47,798 nucleotides of DNA from an uncultured Chloroflexales bacterium (GTDB lineage Bacteria > Chloroflexota > Chloroflexia > Chloroflexales > Chloroflexaceae), in contig CAKZSI010000051.1 in the NCBI GenBank assembly GCA_937918935.1, positions 1 to 47,798 on the forward strand, in the 5' to 3' direction. The position numbers and the translations under genes were made by a program. This document shows, piece after piece, positions 24,972 through 33,338 of this stretch (position 1 is its first letter; the number at the start of each line of letters is the position of its first letter). Below the pieces are notes generated by a model. That model was not told the origin of the DNA, made no database searches, and was given only the letters and a program-made list of their open reading frames with translations.

Positions 24972-26915
24972 CTAGGCTTCACTGCTGGCATCGAGCACGG
25001 CCTGGGCAATCTGCTCGCCGCGGCCCTGGGGCAGGTACACGTAGCGGCCGCCGAGCCAGGCGGCCAGTTGCTGAGCCTCGCCGCGGGAGATGAAGCTCCG
25101 CTGCGTGTCGATCACCACGGCGCCAATGCCGGCGGCACGGATACGCGCGCTGAGGGTCTGCACCTCGGTGCGGGCCACCTCGAGGCGCTGCTGCTTATCG
25201 TGGGCCGGGTCAGGACGCAGGGGGACATTGGGCCGCCCGTCGGTGATCAGCACCAGGGTGGTGCGGTGGATGCCCCGGGCGCGGGCCTGTTCGGCCACCT
25301 GGTAGGCTGCCAGGAGCGCGGCAGCCAGGGGGGTGCCGCCGCCGGTGGGCAGCACATCGAGGGCACGCTTGGCCAGTTCCACGCTCTGCGACGGCGGCAG
25401 GAGCATTTCCGCCGACTCGCCACGGAAGGCCAGGAGGGCCACCTGGTCACGGTGCACGTAGGCCTGCTGGAGCAAGGTGTTCACCGCGCCCTTGGCCTGG
25501 CGCATGCGATGGAGGGCCATCGAGCCGCTGGCGTCAACCACGAAGCAGAAGAGCGTCCCGGCCTTGCTCCGGTACTTCTTGATGTGCAGATCATCGGCCT
25601 TGAGGCGAATATGGCCATGGTGGCGGGAGGCCTCGCGGCGGCGCACCGGCTGCCAGGGCGCGGCAGCGCGCAGGGTCGCCACCACGTCCAGGCGACCCTG
25701 GGAGGGCAGGCCAGGAATGGAACGGATGTGCCGCCCGCGTGTACCGGAAGTACTACCCCGCGAGCCGCTGCGACCGCTCCGGCGCACGGTGAAGGGCGTC
25801 TCCAGCACGTCGGGGGGCACCTCGGCATCCAGCGCAGAGAGGATCAGATCCTCGACCGTGAGATCCTCAGGAGGCGTAGGCGGTTGCTCGCTCTCGTCCT
25901 CATCGTCGTTACGCTGCTGCTCGTCGGGGGGCGGCTGCTCAGGCTGCGGTGGCGGGGGTTGCTCGGGTTGAGGCGGCTGCTCGGCGGCCTGGGGGACACG
26001 GGTAGCACGGGGTAGCAACACAAAGCGCACTGCCCGTTCCAGATCCTCGTCAGCCACCTCGTCGCGCCCGGCGAGGGCCGCCGAGGCCAGGGCCGCACGC
26101 ACGGCAAAAATATCGGCCCGGTGACCCTCCACCCCCAGCGCCAGCGCCGCCTGGCTCAACTGAACCATCTGGGCCTCGCTGATGCGCACCTCGGGCAGGG
26201 TCTCGCGGGCAGCCATAATCATGGCGTGGAGCATGGCATCCTCATCGGCCCATTCCTCGGCCATCCCTTCGCCATACTCTGCACCATTGTTGTTGCGGCG
26301 CGCCGTTGCGACCAGTCGCGCCCGATCCACCAGCAGGTTGCGGCGCACCACCTCGGCGCGGGCGTGCCCGGGCGCCTGCGACACCGGGGCGACGATCAGG
26401 CCGACGCGGTCGAGCAGGTGGCGGCGCGGCGGCCCCTCGGCAGGATCGTAGGTAGCGATCAGCGCGAAGCGGGCCGGTTCGACCAGACTGAGACCATCGC
26501 GTTCCACGCGCACCAGGCCGCTGTCGAGGGCCGCCAGCAGATGATTGACCGTACTATCATCGAGCAGATTGACCCCATCGGCATACAGCAAGCCGCCGTG
26601 GGCCCGGGCCAGCAACCCGCTACGGTGGACACGCTCGCCCCGCGCCAGGGTCGCCTCCAGGTCGAGCCCGCCGAGGAGACGGTCCTCAGTGACGCCAACG
26701 GGCAACTCAACCAGCCCGCCGTGGATCGGCGCCGGCCCGGAAGCGCCGCCGGCAAGCAGACGAGCGAAGGCGCGCACCAGGGTGCTCTTGCCGGTACCCA
26801 CGCCCGCGGCGATCACCACCCCGCCGAGACCAGGGTCAACCGCGAGCAGCAGGAGCGCCTGGCGCCCCGCGTCCAGACCAACCAGGGCAGAGAAGGGCAA
26901 CACCGCCGGGGTCAC
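24972..26915 (-). CDS. bchD: Magnesium chelatase subunit D
   Basis: This is a 647-residue protein. The N-terminal AAA+ domain keeps a P-loop, AGVGTGKST (residues 37-45), but its Walker B region reads LLYADGVNLLDD, with glycine where BchI has the catalytic glutamate (DEVN). A proline- and acid-rich linker follows (about residues 320-360). The C-terminal von Willebrand A domain has the metal site FVVDASGSM and later LITDGRPN. BchD forms the platform that works with BchI and BchH to insert Mg2+ into protoporphyrin IX, the first committed step of bacteriochlorophyll synthesis. Its GTG start overlaps the bchI stop codon by 4 nt (GTGA), so the two are coupled. Confidence 0.92.
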   Translation of the reverse strand: MTPAVLPFSALVGLDAGRQALLLLAVDPGLGGVVIAAGVGTGKSTLVRAFARLLAGGASGPAPIHGGLVELPVGVTEDRLLGGLDLEATLARGERVHRSGLLARAHGGLLYADGVNLLDDSTVNHLLAALDSGLVRVERDGLSLVEPARFALIATYDPAEGPPRRHLLDRVGLIVAPVSQAPGHARAEVVRRNLLVDRARLVATARRNNNGAEYGEGMAEEWADEDAMLHAMIMAARETLPEVRISEAQMVQLSQAALALGVEGHRADIFAVRAALASAALAGRDEVADEDLERAVRFVLLPRATRVPQAAEQPPQPEQPPPPQPEQPPPDEQQRNDDEDESEQPPTPPEDLTVEDLILSALDAEVPPDVLETPFTVRRSGRSGSRGSTSGTRGRHIRSIPGLPSQGRLDVVATLRAAAPWQPVRRREASRHHGHIRLKADDLHIKKYRSKAGTLFCFVVDASGSMALHRMRQAKGAVNTLLQQAYVHRDQVALLAFRGESAEMLLPPSQSVELAKRALDVLPTGGGTPLAAALLAAYQVAEQARARGIHRTTLVLITDGRPNVPLRPDPAHDKQQRLEVARTEVQTLSARIRAAGIGAVVIDTQRSFISRGEAQQLAAWLGGRYVYLPQGRGEQIAQAVLDASSEA

Positions 26916-28018
26916 GCCAGCACCTCTTCCACGGCCCGCTCGATGCGCGTCGCGTCGTCCTGGGTTTCGAGGGGATCCTTGCGCAGGCGATGGCGCAGGG
27001 CAAGAATGGCGATACGGCGCACGTCCTCGACGCGCACCTCATTGCGCCCCTCGAAGGCGGCCAGGGCGGTGGCGGCGCGGCTGAGGGTCAACTCGCCACG
27101 GTGCCCATCCACCTCCAGCTTGACGCACAACTCGGCGATCTTGTAGAGCACCGGATCGGGGAGTTGCACCTCGGGAAGGCGTTTCTGGGCCTGCTTGATC
27201 TTGCGCTGGAGGCGCGCGGTCTCCTTTTCCCAGGCCGCGGCAAAGGCGAACGGATCGGCATCGTAGGCGCGGCGGCGCTTGACGATCTCCACCCGCTCGT
27301 CCACATTGGTAATGGTGACGATGCGGGCGTGGAGGCCGAAGCGATCGAGCAACTGGGGGCGCAGATCACCCTCTTCAGGGTTGCCGGAGCCAACCAGCAC
27401 GAAGCGGGCCGGGTGGCGGATAGAGATCCCCTCGCGCTCGACCACATTGACGCCACTGGCGGCCACATCGAGGAGCACATCAACCAGATGGTCCTCCAGC
27501 AAGTTCACCTCATCGATGTACAGGAAGCCGCGATTGGCGCGGGCAAGGAGGCCGGGGGCAAAGGCCTGGACCCCCTGCGTCAGGGCGCGCTCGATATCGA
27601 GGGTACCGCAGACGCGGTCCTCGGTAGCGCCGAGGGGCAGATCCACCACCGGCACGGGGATGGTGACGGCCCGGGGCTTGCGCGGCTGGGCCTTACCATT
27701 GGGCGACTCGTGCGGGCGAGTATGCTCGCAGAAGCCATCAGCCTCGGGCGCGCAGGAGTAGGGGCAGCCGGCCACCGCTTTGATCGGCGGGAGCATGGCG
27801 GCGAGGGCGCGCACGGCGGTTGACTTGGCCGTACCACGATGGCCCATCACCATGACACCGCCGATGGTCGGATTGACCACGCAGAGAATCAACCCCAGCT
27901 TCAACTCAGCCTGACCGACAATCGCGACAAACGGATATGGCGGCACGGGACCCTGCGGGGCGGGTGTGGCGCCATTCTCGGCGGGACGGGGCGCGAGCGT
28001 CTCTGTCTCTGTTGCCAT
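26912..28018 (-). CDS. bchI: Magnesium chelatase ATPase subunit I
   Basis: This is a 368-residue AAA+ ATPase with Walker A GHRGTAKST (residues 59-67), Walker B FLYIDEVNLLED and the sensor/arginine-finger region RFVLVGSGNPEEGDLRPQLL. It starts at the ATG at 28018, and the conserved family sequence begins soon after (PPYPFVAIVGQAELK). The frame is open to 28138, but the extra residues do not fit the family. BchI hexamers hydrolyse ATP to drive Mg insertion by BchH. bchH is not in this window. It is coupled to bchD by a 4-nt overlap. Confidence 0.95.
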   Translation of the reverse strand: MATETETLAPRPAENGATPAPQGPVPPYPFVAIVGQAELKLGLILCVVNPTIGGVMVMGHRGTAKSTAVRALAAMLPPIKAVAGCPYSCAPEADGFCEHTRPHESPNGKAQPRKPRAVTIPVPVVDLPLGATEDRVCGTLDIERALTQGVQAFAPGLLARANRGFLYIDEVNLLEDHLVDVLLDVAASGVNVVEREGISIRHPARFVLVGSGNPEEGDLRPQLLDRFGLHARIVTITNVDERVEIVKRRRAYDADPFAFAAAWEKETARLQRKIKQAQKRLPEVQLPDPVLYKIAELCVKLEVDGHRGELTLSRAATALAAFEGRNEVRVEDVRRIAILALRHRLRKDPLETQDDATRIERAVEEVLA

Positions 28019-28175: not shown

Positions 28176-28379
28176 TCAGCGAGCTTTAGGCTTCTCGGGC
28201 ATCGAACCGACGGTCGGCTGCCGCTGGCCATTTGGCAGGCGGCGGGCATAAGCGGTAAGGTTGGTCCAGAGGAACGTCAGGCCCAGCGTGAGCACGGTAA
28301 TGATCAGGCAGGCCCAACATACCAGCGCCGGGGTAAGCGGCCCGATCATCTGAGTAGCCTGAGCATACGTCTCGGTCAT
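28176..28379 (-). CDS. Small single-helix membrane protein in the bch cluster, unrecognised
   Basis: This is a 67-residue protein: a short polar N-terminus (MTETYAQATQMIG), one strong transmembrane helix at about residues 14-38 (LTPALVCWACLIITVLTLGL and on), then a basic, proline-containing tail (ARRLPNGQRQP). I do not recognise a family, and it does not match the light-harvesting alpha or beta polypeptides I know from Chloroflexus. The gene is well supported: AGGAG stands 7 nt before the ATG, and a promoter-like pair lies about 90 bp upstream. By the positive-inside rule the tail would be cytoplasmic. It sits between bchX and bchI in the same direction. An accessory role in pigment synthesis or in the reaction centre-antenna complex is an inference from position only. 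Confidence 0.7.
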   Translation of the reverse strand: MTETYAQATQMIGPLTPALVCWACLIITVLTLGLTFLWTNLTAYARRLPNGQRQPTVGSMPEKPKAR

Positions 28380-28465
28380 GGCGCTACTCCTGTCTAGCTT
28401 CCGCGACGAAGGACGCCATATCACTTCGCGCAACTTTTTGGAAGGATATGAACTTTTCTTTCTGT

Positions 28466-28494
28466 ATTGTACCACACATCGGCTCAGGGGTTAA
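28466..28494 (-). promoter_or_regulatory. Promoter candidate for the small membrane protein gene
   Basis: Read leftward, TTAACC (28494-28489) and TACAAT (28471-28466) are 17 bp apart, within an AT-rich stretch. Transcription would begin near 28459, about 80 nt before the start codon. It could also serve bchI and bchD downstream. Confidence 0.55.
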
Positions 28495-28551: not shown

Positions 28552-28719
28552 CTAGCGATGCCAGAGGGGATTGACCTGTTCGGGCGTTTCTGCGCCAACC
28601 TCCTCAAAACTGTGGCACCAGCACCAGAAGCGCGCCGCGAACCACCAGCGCAGGCGCAGATGCCAGGGCGCCAGACGATACTCGGTCACGGCCGTTGTGG
28701 ACGGTATCCGCACCTTCAT
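28552..28719 (-). CDS. Possible small protein (55 residues), unrecognised
   Basis: The frame starts with the ATG at 28719, which has GAGG 7 nt upstream. It encodes a tryptophan-rich, basic middle (WHLRLRWWFAARFWCWCHSF) and an acidic end. The tryptophan content and the good ribosome site argue for a real gene. Against it, the protein matches no family that I know and the region is short. It lies between bchX and the small membrane protein in the same direction. The central stretch could be an amphipathic membrane-binding helix. Frames on the other strand here look like shadows. Confidence 0.45.
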   Translation of the reverse strand: MKVRIPSTTAVTEYRLAPWHLRLRWWFAARFWCWCHSFEEVGAETPEQVNPLWHR

Positions 28720-28847: not shown

Positions 28848-30077
28848 TTACCGGTACACCGGACTGGCGGGCCGTCGCAGATCCACGTAGCGAAACGGCT
28901 CGCCGGACTTCTGCAGGGCGGCCAGAATGGCCACCTTGCTATCCAGTTCGCGCTCATCACCGAAGCAGATGGTAGTATGGCCATCAACGGTCAGGGTCAG
29001 GCCCTTGCGGGGATCCTGGCTGGCCTCGGTGACATACATGCCCAGATCCTTCAGCAGGCGTTTAACCACCCGGCGCGCGGCTGGATCGAGTCCGGGTTGA
29101 TCGCCCACGGCGCGGCTCATCAACTCCAGTTCGAGCACCGGCACGGCCGGGGCAGCGTGGCCGCCGAACAGTTCCTCGGCGCATGCGCCTTCGGGGACGA
29201 TATCGGGTTCATCGGCGCCGAAGACGCCGAGAAACTCCCGGTACTCGAGGGGGCGCACGGCGTCCATCTCGACCGGCGGGGTATCGCGAGCGACGATCTG
29301 TCGCGCCAGACGCTCGAAGATGGCGTCGAACTGCGGCTCGGTGAGGGCCAGTTTGCAGGCGTCAGCAAGTTCGCGCACGGTACGGTCGAGGGGAATGCTG
29401 GCCAGTATCGGGAGATTGATCCGTTCGGCGAAGCGGGCAGCCACGCCGGAGCCATCATCGCGATTCACCACCAGGCCGACCAGGCGCGTGCGGCCGCCCA
29501 TGCTGGCGAAGTACCTGGCGGCGCTGGCGATATTATTGGCCGCGTAGAGGCTCTGGCGATCATTGCCGCAAAGGATAATCACCTCCTCGGCGAGCGAGCG
29601 CGAGAGCGGGGTGGCAAAGCCGCCGCAGACCACATCGCCCAGGAAATCCATGACCACATAGTCGAGGGCCCAGCGGCTGAGGCCCAGCTTTTCGAGCAGA
29701 TCGAAGCCGAAGGTAATCCCGCGACCGCCGCAGCCGCGCCCCACCTCCGGGCCGCCGATTTCGCAGCCATACACCGTCGCCGCCCCATCCATGATCTGGG
29801 TCTTAAAGATCACGTGCTGGGCCTGAAGTTCCTCCTCGCGCCCAGCTTCCTTGAAGACGCGCCACACGTCACCGAGGGTGGGCAGGCTTACGCCGCCGAA
29901 CAGCGCGTTACAGCTATCATGTTTCGGGTCGCATCCAAGTTGTAACACGCGATGGCCGAGCAGCGCGAGCTTGCTCACCAGGTTGGTGGTGAAGAATGAC
30001 TTCCCCATACCCCCTTTGCCATACACCGCCAGCATACGCGCCGCGCCAGGCGGGGTGGGTTTGAGATGAGCGGGCAT
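28848..30077 (-). CDS. bchX: Chlorophyllide a reductase iron protein BchX, with long C-terminal extension
   Basis: This is a 409-residue nitrogenase-iron-protein homologue. It has a P-loop GKGGMGKS at residues 20-27 and cluster-ligand cysteines Cys116 (GRGCGGRG) and Cys151 (GDVVCGGF). GGPEVGRGCGGRG and DFLGDVVCGGF are diagnostic of BchX rather than BchL. The dimer delivers electrons with ATP to BchYZ, which reduces ring B of chlorophyllide. The family core ends near residue 315. About 95 more residues follow, including DPRKGLTLTVDG, GDERELDSKVAIL and YVDLRRP, a pattern that reminds me of the C-terminal beta domain of FtsQ/DivIB. bchY and bchZ are not next to it. GAGG stands 5 nt before the ATG. 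Confidence 0.92.
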   Translation of the reverse strand: MPAHLKPTPPGAARMLAVYGKGGMGKSFFTTNLVSKLALLGHRVLQLGCDPKHDSCNALFGGVSLPTLGDVWRVFKEAGREEELQAQHVIFKTQIMDGAATVYGCEIGGPEVGRGCGGRGITFGFDLLEKLGLSRWALDYVVMDFLGDVVCGGFATPLSRSLAEEVIILCGNDRQSLYAANNIASAARYFASMGGRTRLVGLVVNRDDGSGVAARFAERINLPILASIPLDRTVRELADACKLALTEPQFDAIFERLARQIVARDTPPVEMDAVRPLEYREFLGVFGADEPDIVPEGACAEELFGGHAAPAVPVLELELMSRAVGDQPGLDPAARRVVKRLLKDLGMYVTEASQDPRKGLTLTVDGHTTICFGDERELDSKVAILAALQKSGEPFRYVDLRRPASPVYR

Positions 30078-30100: not shown

Positions 30101-31096
30101 TCACGATGCGACGACGCCATTGCCGTCGTGCGGCCATTCAATCACCACCTTGAGGCAACTTGGATCCTCCAGGGCAAGGCGATAGGCGGCCTGGATGCGA
30201 TCGAGGGGCACCCGGTGGGTCAGCAGGCCGCGCACATCGAGTTCGCCCGAGGCGATCAGATCGCGCACGCGGGGCAGGTCCCCATCGGGGCCAAAGGCCC
30301 ACTCGCGGGCCACCAGCACCTGGGCCTCGCGCATAAAGACCGGCGCGTAGGGAAAATCCACGTGGTCGTAGTAGCCCAGCAGCAAGACCCGGCCGTGGTT
30401 GGCCAGCAGGGGCAGCGCGCCGGAGAGGGCCGGCATCGAACCAGTGGCTTCGATCAGCACATTGATATTGGCCTCGGGAATAGCCTCATCAAGCGACTCA
30501 CGGGTCACATCAATGATTTGATCGGCCTGCGAGGCCTGGAGCCGGACGGCCACACGGTCGGCGACGGCCACGAATTGAGCCCCCTGGATCCTGGCGAGGC
30601 GAGCGGCGAGCTGGCCGACAATGCCCTGACCCAGGACCAGCACACGATCCGAGCGATGGATGGTGGCGACATTGACGCCGTGGAGGGCCGAAGCCGCCAG
30701 CGCCAGGAGGACGCCGGTGGGCGGGTCAATCGTGCCGAGGGGCACGACACGTTCGGCCTCGGCGCTAATATACTCGCTCTGCCCGCCCCAGGCCGGGTTC
30801 ACCCCCCGGAAGCACCGGGCGCCGCCAACATAGACCCACTGCCCGAGCAGAGATTGGGGCACTCTCGATCCCACCTGGATAACCTTGCCCACCGTCTCGT
30901 ACCCTGGCACCACGGGGAAGACCAACGCCGGGTGGGGCATCCGTCCATCGAGCAACATGCGTTCCGTGCCGGCGCTGATCGAGGTGAAGGCGGTGCGGAT
31001 CAACACATCGCCGGACCGGGGTTCCTGCACCTGCACGGTGCGCAATTCGACCGTGTTGCGGCGCGGAATCACCACGGCGCGTGATTTGATCGGCAT
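30101..31096 (-). CDS. bchC: Bacteriochlorophyllide a dehydrogenase BchC
   Basis: This 331-residue medium-chain dehydrogenase has a GroES-like first half (ISAGTERMLLDGRMPHPALV and FPVVPGYETVGKV are BchC hallmarks). The Rossmann half begins RVLVLGQGIVGQLAARLARI. It oxidises the 3-hydroxyethyl group of bacteriochlorophyllide to the 3-acetyl group, the step after BchF. The start is set at the ATG at 31096 (MPIKSRAVVIPR), where family similarity begins. The frame is open to 31174. It is followed by bchX after 23 bp. Confidence 0.92.
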   Translation of the reverse strand: MPIKSRAVVIPRRNTVELRTVQVQEPRSGDVLIRTAFTSISAGTERMLLDGRMPHPALVFPVVPGYETVGKVIQVGSRVPQSLLGQWVYVGGARCFRGVNPAWGGQSEYISAEAERVVPLGTIDPPTGVLLALAASALHGVNVATIHRSDRVLVLGQGIVGQLAARLARIQGAQFVAVADRVAVRLQASQADQIIDVTRESLDEAIPEANINVLIEATGSMPALSGALPLLANHGRVLLLGYYDHVDFPYAPVFMREAQVLVAREWAFGPDGDLPRVRDLIASGELDVRGLLTHRVPLDRIQAAYRLALEDPSCLKVVIEWPHDGNGVVAS

Positions 31097-31201
31097 ACCG
31101 GTATCGCTTTCTAGGTCGCGAGCGGGCGCTCCAACGGGCGCCCGGCTCGCCGCAAATGAACCTGCCGGAAGCATCGATCCGCGGCGCCACGGACGCTTGC
31201 C

Positions 31202-31687
31202 TCAATCCTGGGTGGATGTACCAACACTGATTGCCCGCGTTGCCAGTGCGCGCCGTTGGCGTGCAGAGCGGATGCCCCGCGCCAGAAACTGCCCGGCGTT
31301 AAAGAGATAGGTCACATACGCAAAGACCATTACCCACATCACCGTCTGGGTATCGGCGCCCATCCACCGGGCGACGAAATACAGATTGTGGGTAATAATG
31401 GCGATCAGATTGCCGAGATCCTCCCAGAAGAACTCCCTGGCCATGAAGTAGTGGTCGAACATATCGTGTTCCCAGAGCATCCCGGTGATCGTCAATGCCC
31501 AGATGAGCGCAATCTTGATCCAGATACTAATGGTGGTGATCCAGTACCCTTCGCCGGTCATAAGATAGCGAATCACCAGAGCGAAGCTGATGATGAAGGC
31601 AACGAACTGGATGGGGGCCAGGATGATCTGCACGCGCGTCCAGCGTGAAGCCTCACGACGTCGCAACTGTTCGGGTGTATACATCAT
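31202..31687 (-). CDS. bchF: 3-vinyl bacteriochlorophyllide hydratase BchF
   Basis: This is a 161-residue membrane protein with about four helices. The N-terminal YTPEQLRRREASRWTRVQ matches the YTxEERRRRDAxxWTxVQ pattern of BchF. The middle has FALVIRYLMTGEGYW, then EFFWEDLGNLIAIITHNLYF, and the end has YLFNAGQFL. It hydrates the 3-vinyl group of chlorophyllide to 3-hydroxyethyl, the substrate of BchC encoded next. Two ATG codons occur in a row; the first, at 31687, has GGAG 9 nt upstream. Confidence 0.93.
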   Translation of the reverse strand: MMYTPEQLRRREASRWTRVQIILAPIQFVAFIISFALVIRYLMTGEGYWITTISIWIKIALIWALTITGMLWEHDMFDHYFMAREFFWEDLGNLIAIITHNLYFVARWMGADTQTVMWVMVFAYVTYLFNAGQFLARGIRSARQRRALATRAISVGTSTQD

Positions 31688-31765: not shown

Positions 31766-33121
31766 TTAGCCGGCTGTATCCATCGCCAGCACCGTGCCGA
31801 TCTCCTGGCGCGTGAGACCCTTGAACTCCTGCACACTGACGGTGCGGAGGATGACGATGGCGAGGCCCATCACCAACGCTTCGAAGGAAAAGATCAGCCC
31901 GTACGCCATCGTCGGGGTCATCGCCAACTGCTCGATCAAGAGCGTATGGAACGCGCCGCTGAGCACATTGGCGAAGCCGTTGCCAAAGCCCTGGGCCATG
32001 CCCCAGATGCCCATATACAGACCGGCCTGCCCTGCGAGCGTCATGTCCATCATCATGGAGAGCGCGCCCACATCGAACAGACCAATGCTGAGACCCATCA
32101 CGATCAGACTGGGGAGAATCAACTCCGGACGATGGGAAAAGGCGGAAAAGGCAATTGCCGCCAGGCTGGCGACGATCCCCAGGCCGCCGATGGTGGTGAT
32201 CAGCTTCTTCGGAATCGCAAACACGCTACACAGAATGCCGATGCCGATCATACCGAGCAACGCCCCGCCCCCCCAGACCTGCTGGAAGCGGGCCGTCTCG
32301 GCCTGGGTCATGCCGAACACCTCGGCGCCGAACGGCTCCAGGATGGCGTCCTGGAGGAAAATGCCGAAAATGCCAAGAAGAATGAAGAAGAAGAAGGCGC
32401 GCACGTGGGGATTGTCGCCCATCAAGCGCCGGGCTACGCGGAAGGTTTCGAAGGGCGAGGCCCCCTCGGCGGGCTGCTCGGCGAGGAACGCGGCGTGCTG
32501 CTCCTTGCTGACGCGGCGCTCCATGCCGACCACCCCCAGCAGGGTCGTCACCATGACCACAATCGGCGTCAGGTTATAGAGTTGCTGCATCGCCTCGGGC
32601 GAGTAGACCGGCATCATCACCCGCGACACCCCGGCGGAGACGATCCCGCTGATGATCACCGTGGCCCAGATCACCGCGACCACAAAGCCACGATCCTTTT
32701 CAGTGGTCACCTCGGCCATCAAGGCGTTGGAGGAACTGCCGTTCATCGCCATCGCCACACCGAAGACCCCGATGAAGAGGAAGGCCTCGATGGTGGCGAG
32801 GGGATCGCGCTGCCCCAGGCCGATGGCGATTGAGGGCAGGAAGAGGAAGATCAGGGAGGCCAGCAGTGAACTGAACAGAATATACGGCGTGCGGCGATAC
32901 CCCAGGATCGGATGGCGATCGGCCAGGCGCCCCCAGTAGACCTGGAAGAAGGAGATGAAGTGGTGCATGCCGATCAGCGTGGTGACGATCACCGCGATGG
33001 CGCCCAGGTCAGCAATGGTAATTCGGTTGAAGTTGAACGTCAGCAGAGCAAACATCCATCCCGCTCCGATCCGCAAGATGGACAGGCGGAGGGTCTTGAC
33101 CAGGAGACGCAGGAGGGCCAT
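31766..33121 (-). CDS. PucC/LhaA-type (BCD family) MFS protein
   Basis: This is a 451-residue protein with twelve predicted helices of the bacteriochlorophyll-delivery branch of the major facilitator superfamily. The RLADRHPILGYRRTPYILF stretch after helix 2 is diagnostic, as are GSSSNALMAEVT and the GLSIGLFDVGALSMMMDMT segment. In purple bacteria such proteins (PucC, LhaA) help assemble light-harvesting complexes. The start chosen is the ATG at 33121, which has AGGGG upstream. It is the first gene of the leftward photosynthesis cluster and is followed by bchF after 78 bp. Confidence 0.88.
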   Translation of the reverse strand: MALLRLLVKTLRLSILRIGAGWMFALLTFNFNRITIADLGAIAVIVTTLIGMHHFISFFQVYWGRLADRHPILGYRRTPYILFSSLLASLIFLFLPSIAIGLGQRDPLATIEAFLFIGVFGVAMAMNGSSSNALMAEVTTEKDRGFVVAVIWATVIISGIVSAGVSRVMMPVYSPEAMQQLYNLTPIVVMVTTLLGVVGMERRVSKEQHAAFLAEQPAEGASPFETFRVARRLMGDNPHVRAFFFFILLGIFGIFLQDAILEPFGAEVFGMTQAETARFQQVWGGGALLGMIGIGILCSVFAIPKKLITTIGGLGIVASLAAIAFSAFSHRPELILPSLIVMGLSIGLFDVGALSMMMDMTLAGQAGLYMGIWGMAQGFGNGFANVLSGAFHTLLIEQLAMTPTMAYGLIFSFEALVMGLAIVILRTVSVQEFKGLTRQEIGTVLAMDTAG

Positions 33122-33338
33122 ACACGCTTCCCCTTTCTGCAACAGGGCACGGGGGCCGGAGAATGTAGTACAGGCTAGGAACTACAGGAATAGACTGAAA
33201 GAATACTGAATATATCCAAAAGCTTGAGGCTAGCGCCTCCTGGAATTATCACTGGCACTGGCGCCCATCGCGCGGACGGGACAAGGGGAAGGTGCAGTTC
33301 CGCTGGCAAGGTAGCGGCAAGAACGGTACGTTGGCCTG

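Follow-up and report, generated by a model that had tools for sequence, protein, structure and literature searches.

The window that we analysed, a stretch of 47,798 nucleotides from an uncultured Chloroflexales bacterium, carries between bchX and bchI a small gene (28,176..28,379, minus strand; 67 amino acids and a stop codon), here called N, whose product is very probably a subunit of the reaction centre–light-harvesting (RC-LH) complex. The gene is an orthologue of chain N of PDB entry 8ydm, that is, a real gene with a close relative in a solved reaction centre (RC) complex. Our explanation as a whole is that the protein is a one-helix RC-LH subunit, orthologous to 8ydm_N, that belongs to the family of Roseiflexus subunit Z and would brace RC-M against the antenna. 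We consider this explanation likely.

According to the preliminary description, the DNA between bchX and bchI encodes a 67-residue protein with one transmembrane helix and a basic tail; the open reading frame, an AlphaFold model and the NCBIfam searches confirm this. Both neighbours exceed the NCBIfam equivalog cut-offs: bchX (28,848..30,077, minus strand) with 460 bits for TIGR02016 (cut-off 331.2) and bchI (26,912..28,018, minus strand; ATG at 28,018, with an open frame that extends upstream) with 605.3 bits for TIGR02030 (cut-off 466.95). Modelled from an alignment of 35 members, the protein has a confident helix at residues 16-45 (block means of 96 and 92 for residues 21-40), and so shares the single membrane helix of the family. 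A second helix at residues 3-11 is of low confidence and too short to cross a membrane; the mean pLDDT is 70.9. Read off the sequence, K and R are absent from residues 1-45, and residues 46-67 have a net charge of about +5.

The ribosome site AGGAG (28,387..28,391, minus strand) lies 7 nt 5' of the ATG, as had been described. All 35 members have AGGAG within the 18 bases 5' of the chosen ATG (starts were picked by eye, with homology and AGGAG in view). A longer alternative frame begins with a GTG at 28,475 and has 99 amino acids; of the two starts, it is the ATG that agrees with the chain N / subunit Z family.

Neither Pfam nor NCBIfam offers a family for the window protein at E ≤ 1, and neither it nor the 35 members match PF03967 (PRCH). 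A PuhA-type cytoplasmic globular domain is absent, the protein having 67 residues and its helix ending at residue 45. Single members have weak Pfam matches (the best to DMAC1, E 3.6e-4, in one of the 35), which we put down to noise from the helix. A Foldseek search with the one-helix model found nothing, and the best matches in a plasmid collection and in PHROGs have E-values of 0.8 and 0.79.

Among relatives the gene is conserved. At E ≤ 1e-3 the window protein is matched in 35 of 61 genomes (its own and 60 relatives), namely in 35 of the 37 from its own family and in none of the 24 from other families of the order. Profile A1, run over 82 genomes of the order, finds a strong match (E 3e-25 or better) in 39 of 41 family members and a weaker one in G021 (7.5e-6), so that 40 of the 41 carry the gene. 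The remaining genome, G025, is 86% complete in 1,200 contigs and has no A1 match (0.48). Twelve positions are invariant in A1: M1, G13, P14, P17, C21, W22, L32, T39, N40, A43, A45 and G58.

The conserved homologues beside bchI and bchX that the preliminary description had asked for thus exist, and the purifying selection it had named as a check is present as well. The dN/dS of the N gene is 0.08-0.39 in ten own-genus pairs, with a median of 0.24 and a maximum of 0.48 over the 137 pairs with pS between 0.1 and 0.65 (458 of the 595 pairs were omitted as too close or saturated). Among the 12 genes sought, bchI is the next gene on the same strand in all 40 family loci (the window and 39 others). 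Upstream, bchX lies 5' of the N gene in 34 of the 40; the others are contig ends (five) or L091 from G019, the one locus in which no bchX match stands between bchC and N. Two hits carried foreign labels. A tblastn match in Neobacillus (L034) spans 39 residues, and a 'Gracilibacteria' match (L033) was rejected as probably a mislabelled MAG, its contig of 4,434 bases being the same as one of G020.

A phmmer search of the PDB with the window protein gives one real match, 8ydm_N (E 5e-23, residues 5-61), which is labelled 'hypothetical protein chain N'. The orthologue in genome G031 (L067:12995-13186) is identical to 8ydm_N in 64 of 64 residues, and a 254-residue stretch of the G031 M gene product aligns to 8ydm_M without a difference. 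G031 is a genome matching Chloroflexus aurantiacus, probably strain J-10-fl. The PufM of the window genome also has 8ydm_M as its best match. For a structure of the C. aurantiacus RC-LH complex, a passage of PMC12650329 refers to Huang et al. 2025 (J Integr Plant Biol), and we take 8ydm to be this complex. Hence the protein is not undescribed, as had been thought: it is structurally known already as chain N. The suggestion that it is an accessory subunit of a photosynthetic complex was right in substance. Chain N and the window protein occupy the same locus between bchX and bchI; they differ in length (64 against 67 amino acids), and the window has no intact DUF169 gene in between.

Roseiflexus-type genomes carry a 63-residue frame that matches 8hju_Z ('SUBUNIT Z', 'reaction center small polypeptide') at E 1.1e-34. 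One and the same sequence stands in six entries (8hju, 8hjv, 8iug, 8iun, 8j5o and 8j5p); we therefore take subunit Z of PMC10516601 and protein h of PMC10432797 to be one protein. Z genes were located by profile and motif.

The link between N and Z runs through intermediates and gene order. Profile A5, which is made of N, g21 and f29 members and excludes all Roseiflexus-type (g23 and g27) sequences, finds 8hju_Z as its only significant chain in the PDB besides chain N (E 1.3e-9; the following match is at 2.7). This bears out the suspected tie to the extra helices of the Roseiflexus complex. When the PDB is searched with A1 alone, Z is not among the matches up to E 10. A1 does reach small frames in genus g21 (of family f4, like the Roseiflexus type) at 1.5e-4 and 6.9e-4, and these frames adjoin DUF169 about 5.6 kb from pufLM.

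In the reverse direction, the Z profile A2, run over the 82 genomes, returns the N gene of G019 at 3.3e-6. Its scores for the N genes of G006, G027, G011 and G021 (0.006-0.046) are no better than a chance match in G038, which lacks an RC (0.005), so of five N genes only that of G019 is clear of noise. Aligned by hhalign, A1 and A2 give a modest probability of 68.8 (E 4.5e-5). In a decoy test A1 scores each of the 15 Z and f29 sequences better than any of the 96 membrane decoy helices, the four g21 rows of the test having themselves been found with A1; the margin is narrow for the four Roseiflexus Z sequences (0.044-0.095, against 0.18 for the best decoy). A2 lifts one of seven f29 members above the decoys and does not separate the other six.

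Gene order follows a rule. In all eight Z-bearing loci of the first set the order is bchX, DUF169, Z. Read by eye, ten further Z loci have DUF169 adjoining Z in nine (two confirmed by search) and bchY next in eight (all eight confirmed by search, three as fragments); the exceptions are contig ends in L150 and L153, and L154, which has no bchY in the stretch examined. We are highly confident that N and Z are one family, as sequence comparison and gene order together indicate.

The window protein and subunit Z / protein h share the single helix, a core C-x3-L ... T(N/D)-x2-A and a place downstream of bchX and DUF169. They are about 20% identical in A3, the next gene is bchY for Z and bchI for N, and Z lacks two motifs of N, IGPxxP and TAFAR. 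An A2 match in L127 beside the pufLM of G040 was rejected as a chance frame; the real G040 relative lies in L156, between DUF169 and bchY. Two Z loci have unusual forms. At L154:1465-2322 a Z-like helix opens a frame of 286 residues whose long C-terminal part is of another kind, and in L153 (G071:C382) two Z-profile matches lie about 350 bases apart, possibly as a tandem pair.

Across the order the family goes with the RC. Photo_RC is over its cut-off in 63 of 82 genomes, and 60 of these carry N/Z (all but G025, G060 and G070), G040 being counted for its place between DUF169 and bchY as much as for its score (3.4e-4). Three of the 19 genomes without an RC match over the cut-off carry N/Z as well (G006, G072 and G073; 88, 82 and 72% complete). 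PuhA (PF03967) is over its cut-off in none of the 82 genomes; sub-threshold matches occur in 27 of the 82, as they do in 6 of 14 control genomes.

Outside the order, RC matches (E ≤ 1e-20) occur in seven of 400 genomes drawn from the phylum, all of family f29, and none of the seven has PuhA over its cut-off. In each of them the best match of profile A3 is on the strand of the RC matches and follows the last of these at a distance of 2.65-2.76 kb downstream. These matches (E 8.6e-5 to 1.3e-3) are frames of 52-59 amino acids with one helix. In these loci (L173-L179) pufL and pufM are separate genes, and in the three that were read the RC genes are followed by pufC, a PucC gene and then the one-helix gene. 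The margin over 21 controls lacking an RC is narrow, their best A3 match being 0.004 and the next 0.03, so genome place decides. Set against A3 in hhalign, the f29 sequences give a probability of 96.1 (E 2.9e-9), against 90.2 with A2 and 86.3 with A1. The A3 matches of G021 and G040 are not independent, as A3 includes their sequences, and the seven f29 genomes, which belong to four genera, are relatives of one another and do not count as seven separate events. Judged by sequence comparison and gene order, the N/Z family goes with the type II RC throughout the Chloroflexota that we examined, and no PuhA was found in them.

In the window the N gene belongs to a cluster that reads on the minus strand throughout. 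Besides bchX and bchI it holds bchD (24,972..26,915; TIGR02031, 768.3 bits, cut-off 499.55), bchC (30,101..31,174; TIGR01202, 289.3 bits, slightly below the cut-off of 291.25), bchF (31,202..31,684; TIGR02020, 157.3 bits, cut-off 101.35) and a gene for a PucC-family protein (31,766..33,142; PF03209, 242.4 bits).

A second conserved small gene (28,552..28,719, minus strand; 55 amino acids and a stop codon), which was not mentioned before, adjoins the N gene in the window. It encodes a Trp-rich protein of a family mostly 52-57 residues long, with a core TEYxxAPWHLRLRWW and an NPxWRR-like end. Of 32 intervals between bchX and N, 22 have it directly 3' of bchX when read by eye and 18 under a strict filter. 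Its dN/dS has a median of 0.28 and a maximum of 0.67 (53 pairs), and the window copy finds nothing in Pfam, NCBIfam and PHROGs at E ≤ 1 or in the PDB at E ≤ 10. A tie to csmA was considered and dropped: csmA is present in all 22 carriers, but also in five of ten non-carriers, and kinship confounds the comparison. The C. aurantiacus locus tags in a passage of PMC3150298 are 0415 for bchF, 0416 for bchC, 0417 for bchX, 0419 for bchI and 0420 for bchD. The single tag left between bchX and bchI fits DUF169, so the N and Trp-rich genes are probably unannotated in C. aurantiacus.

The promoter-like pair that had been described, TTAACC and TACAAT with a 17-bp spacer, is present (28,466..28,494, minus strand; 9 of 12 positions, with TG before the second hexamer), and its function is putative. 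Such sites occur twice in the 1,001 bases scanned, against 0.1 times in shuffles. In the five own-genus upstream regions the extended second hexamer TGTGGTACAAT is kept in four and reads TATGGTAGAAT in the fifth, and the first hexamer TTAACC is kept in two of the five. That the pair serves the gene as its own promoter is unproven: the -10-like site may lie within the remains of a DUF169 gene, and in a passage of PMC9316378 the C. aurantiacus genes bchF, bchC, bchX, bchI and bchD are assigned to a single operon.

The possible relic (28,419..28,481, minus strand) would be what is left of the 3' end of a DUF169 gene, as judged by shuffle tests. The resemblance of the window frame 5' of the ATG to the DUF169 C terminus is reached by none of 500 shuffles against the L094 relic and by two to five of 500 against four intact DUF169 genes. 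For the relatives L075 and L070 the figure is 0 to 14 of 500; for L076 it is none against the L094 relic, but 27 to 59 of 500 against intact genes, which is weak. Given this resemblance, the lineage of the window may have lost DUF169 by deletion. Apparent relics stand just 5' of the N gene in the window, L094, L100 and L130, where the contig starts at that point. An intact DUF169 gene occupies this place in Chloroflexus-type genomes, some other genomes of the family and the Roseiflexus group (for example L067:12171-12986 and L118:9550-10278, both linked to bchX), and this pattern of intact genes in some groups and relics in others suggests repeated loss. In the f4 loci read, a DUF169 (PF02596) gene constantly adjoins bchX and Z. 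When DUF169 was searched as a term with Chloroflexus and bacteriochlorophyll, no paper using it was among the matches listed.

How would the protein act? According to PMC10516601, the helix of R. castenholzii Z sits between LHalpha11 and RC-M and touches each of them through hydrogen bonds and hydrophobic contacts, and a legend there reads as N terminus periplasmic and C terminus cytoplasmic. In PMC10432797 protein h is put at the 'exact position' of the H-subunit helix, an H-like role is proposed, and a helix like it is raised as a possibility for other Chloroflexi. PMC10516601 contradicts this in calling the overlap of Z with the H helix a 'mismatch'.

Since N and Z are homologous, N should hold the place of Z. 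It would then be a single-helix structural subunit of the type II RC-antenna complex, with its N terminus periplasmic and its C terminus cytoplasmic, and the charge pattern fits this N-out, C-in orientation. By analogy with Z, the helix would pack between RC-M and a light-harvesting alpha polypeptide and may steady the RC in its ring, as the membrane helix of the H subunit does in purple bacteria. We lean towards this bracing, H-helix-like role, with less confidence than we have in the subunit itself. The window protein contains no His, so a His-type bacteriochlorophyll ligand is not evident.

The membrane helix of PuhA, the H subunit, has the orientation proposed for N. The position given for protein h in PMC10432797 is a further likeness; the N family differs from PuhA in having neither a PF03967 match nor a cytoplasmic domain. 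N also resembles PufX and PufY of purple bacteria, which are small one-helix accessory proteins of RC-LH1. Both are named in PMC10516601; the reports of differing positions concern X and the cytochrome helix rather than N.

Other readings of the gene fare less well. Its shortness and the lack of a Pfam or NCBIfam family could point to a chance frame, an idea whose probability is practically nil, as it is already refuted by the homologues, the selection, the conserved start and the PDB chain. A closer competitor makes N the counterpart of another small Roseiflexus helix, subunit X or protein Y/I, which would line the quinone gate instead of bracing RC-M. X and Y are likewise one-helix RC-LH proteins that annotation missed, according to passages of PMC10516601 and PMC10432797, and the position of N is a predicted one. 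Yet A5 picks out Z (E 1.3e-9) and no second small RC chain up to E 10, the N and Z genes share a locus, and we regard a counterpart of X or Y as improbable. Neither A1 nor A5 has an X or Y chain among its matches up to E 10, in a PDB set that may lack their sequences.

The N gene is located in the bch, not the puf, locus, which counts against an RC subunit. One could think of a protein of bacteriochlorophyll synthesis or delivery, an anchor for BchX or BchI or a chaperone that brings pigment to the RC, that merely co-purifies with the RC. In the loci of the order that were read, N/Z indeed lies between bchX and bchI or bchY, often with DUF169 alongside. However, N is a modelled chain of a solved complex, and in f29 genomes the relative comes after the RC genes, with pufC and a PucC gene in front of it; we rate this reading slightly lower again than the preceding one. 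A part in the chlorosome or in baseplate attachment is barely credible. In the own family, to which the csmA search was confined, csmA is found in 33 of 41 genomes, but all eight members without a csmA match carry N (G003, G013, G017, G018, G020, G021, G027 and G028; G003 is an 84% complete MAG of an otherwise csmA-bearing genus), and Z-bearing R. castenholzii is called chlorosome-less in a passage of PMC10516601.

New here are the joining of N with Z/h as one family, the locus rule and the spread of the family. In the open literature searched we did not find these stated; Huang et al. 2025 may state part of them. Through the family, a chain left unnamed in one structure is linked with subunit Z of a second. 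Because they are so short, N/Z genes are easily overlooked by annotation, and annotators gain a profile and a locus rule.

Published descriptions of the RCs of filamentous anoxygenic phototrophs have them without an H subunit, and in the genomes that we examined nearly all of these RCs come with N/Z. A bolder and rather unlikely reading makes N/Z a subunit of Chloroflexota type II RCs that is ancestral, spread through the whole phylum and the stand-alone counterpart of the H-subunit helix. In its boldest form PuhA would be such a helix with a gained cytoplasmic domain, and WPS-2 phototrophs without puhA should carry one too; a passage of PMC6664022 observes no puhA in WPS-2 (Eremiobacterota) phototrophs. 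The question of what replaces H becomes testable, for example in foreign hosts, by adding N/Z: according to PMC12650329, Rhodobacter sphaeroides has been given a synthetic operon for a Chloroflexota RC, which the figure legend shows with pufL and pufM. If the ancestral reading is true, 'H-less' RCs would possess an H-like helix after all.
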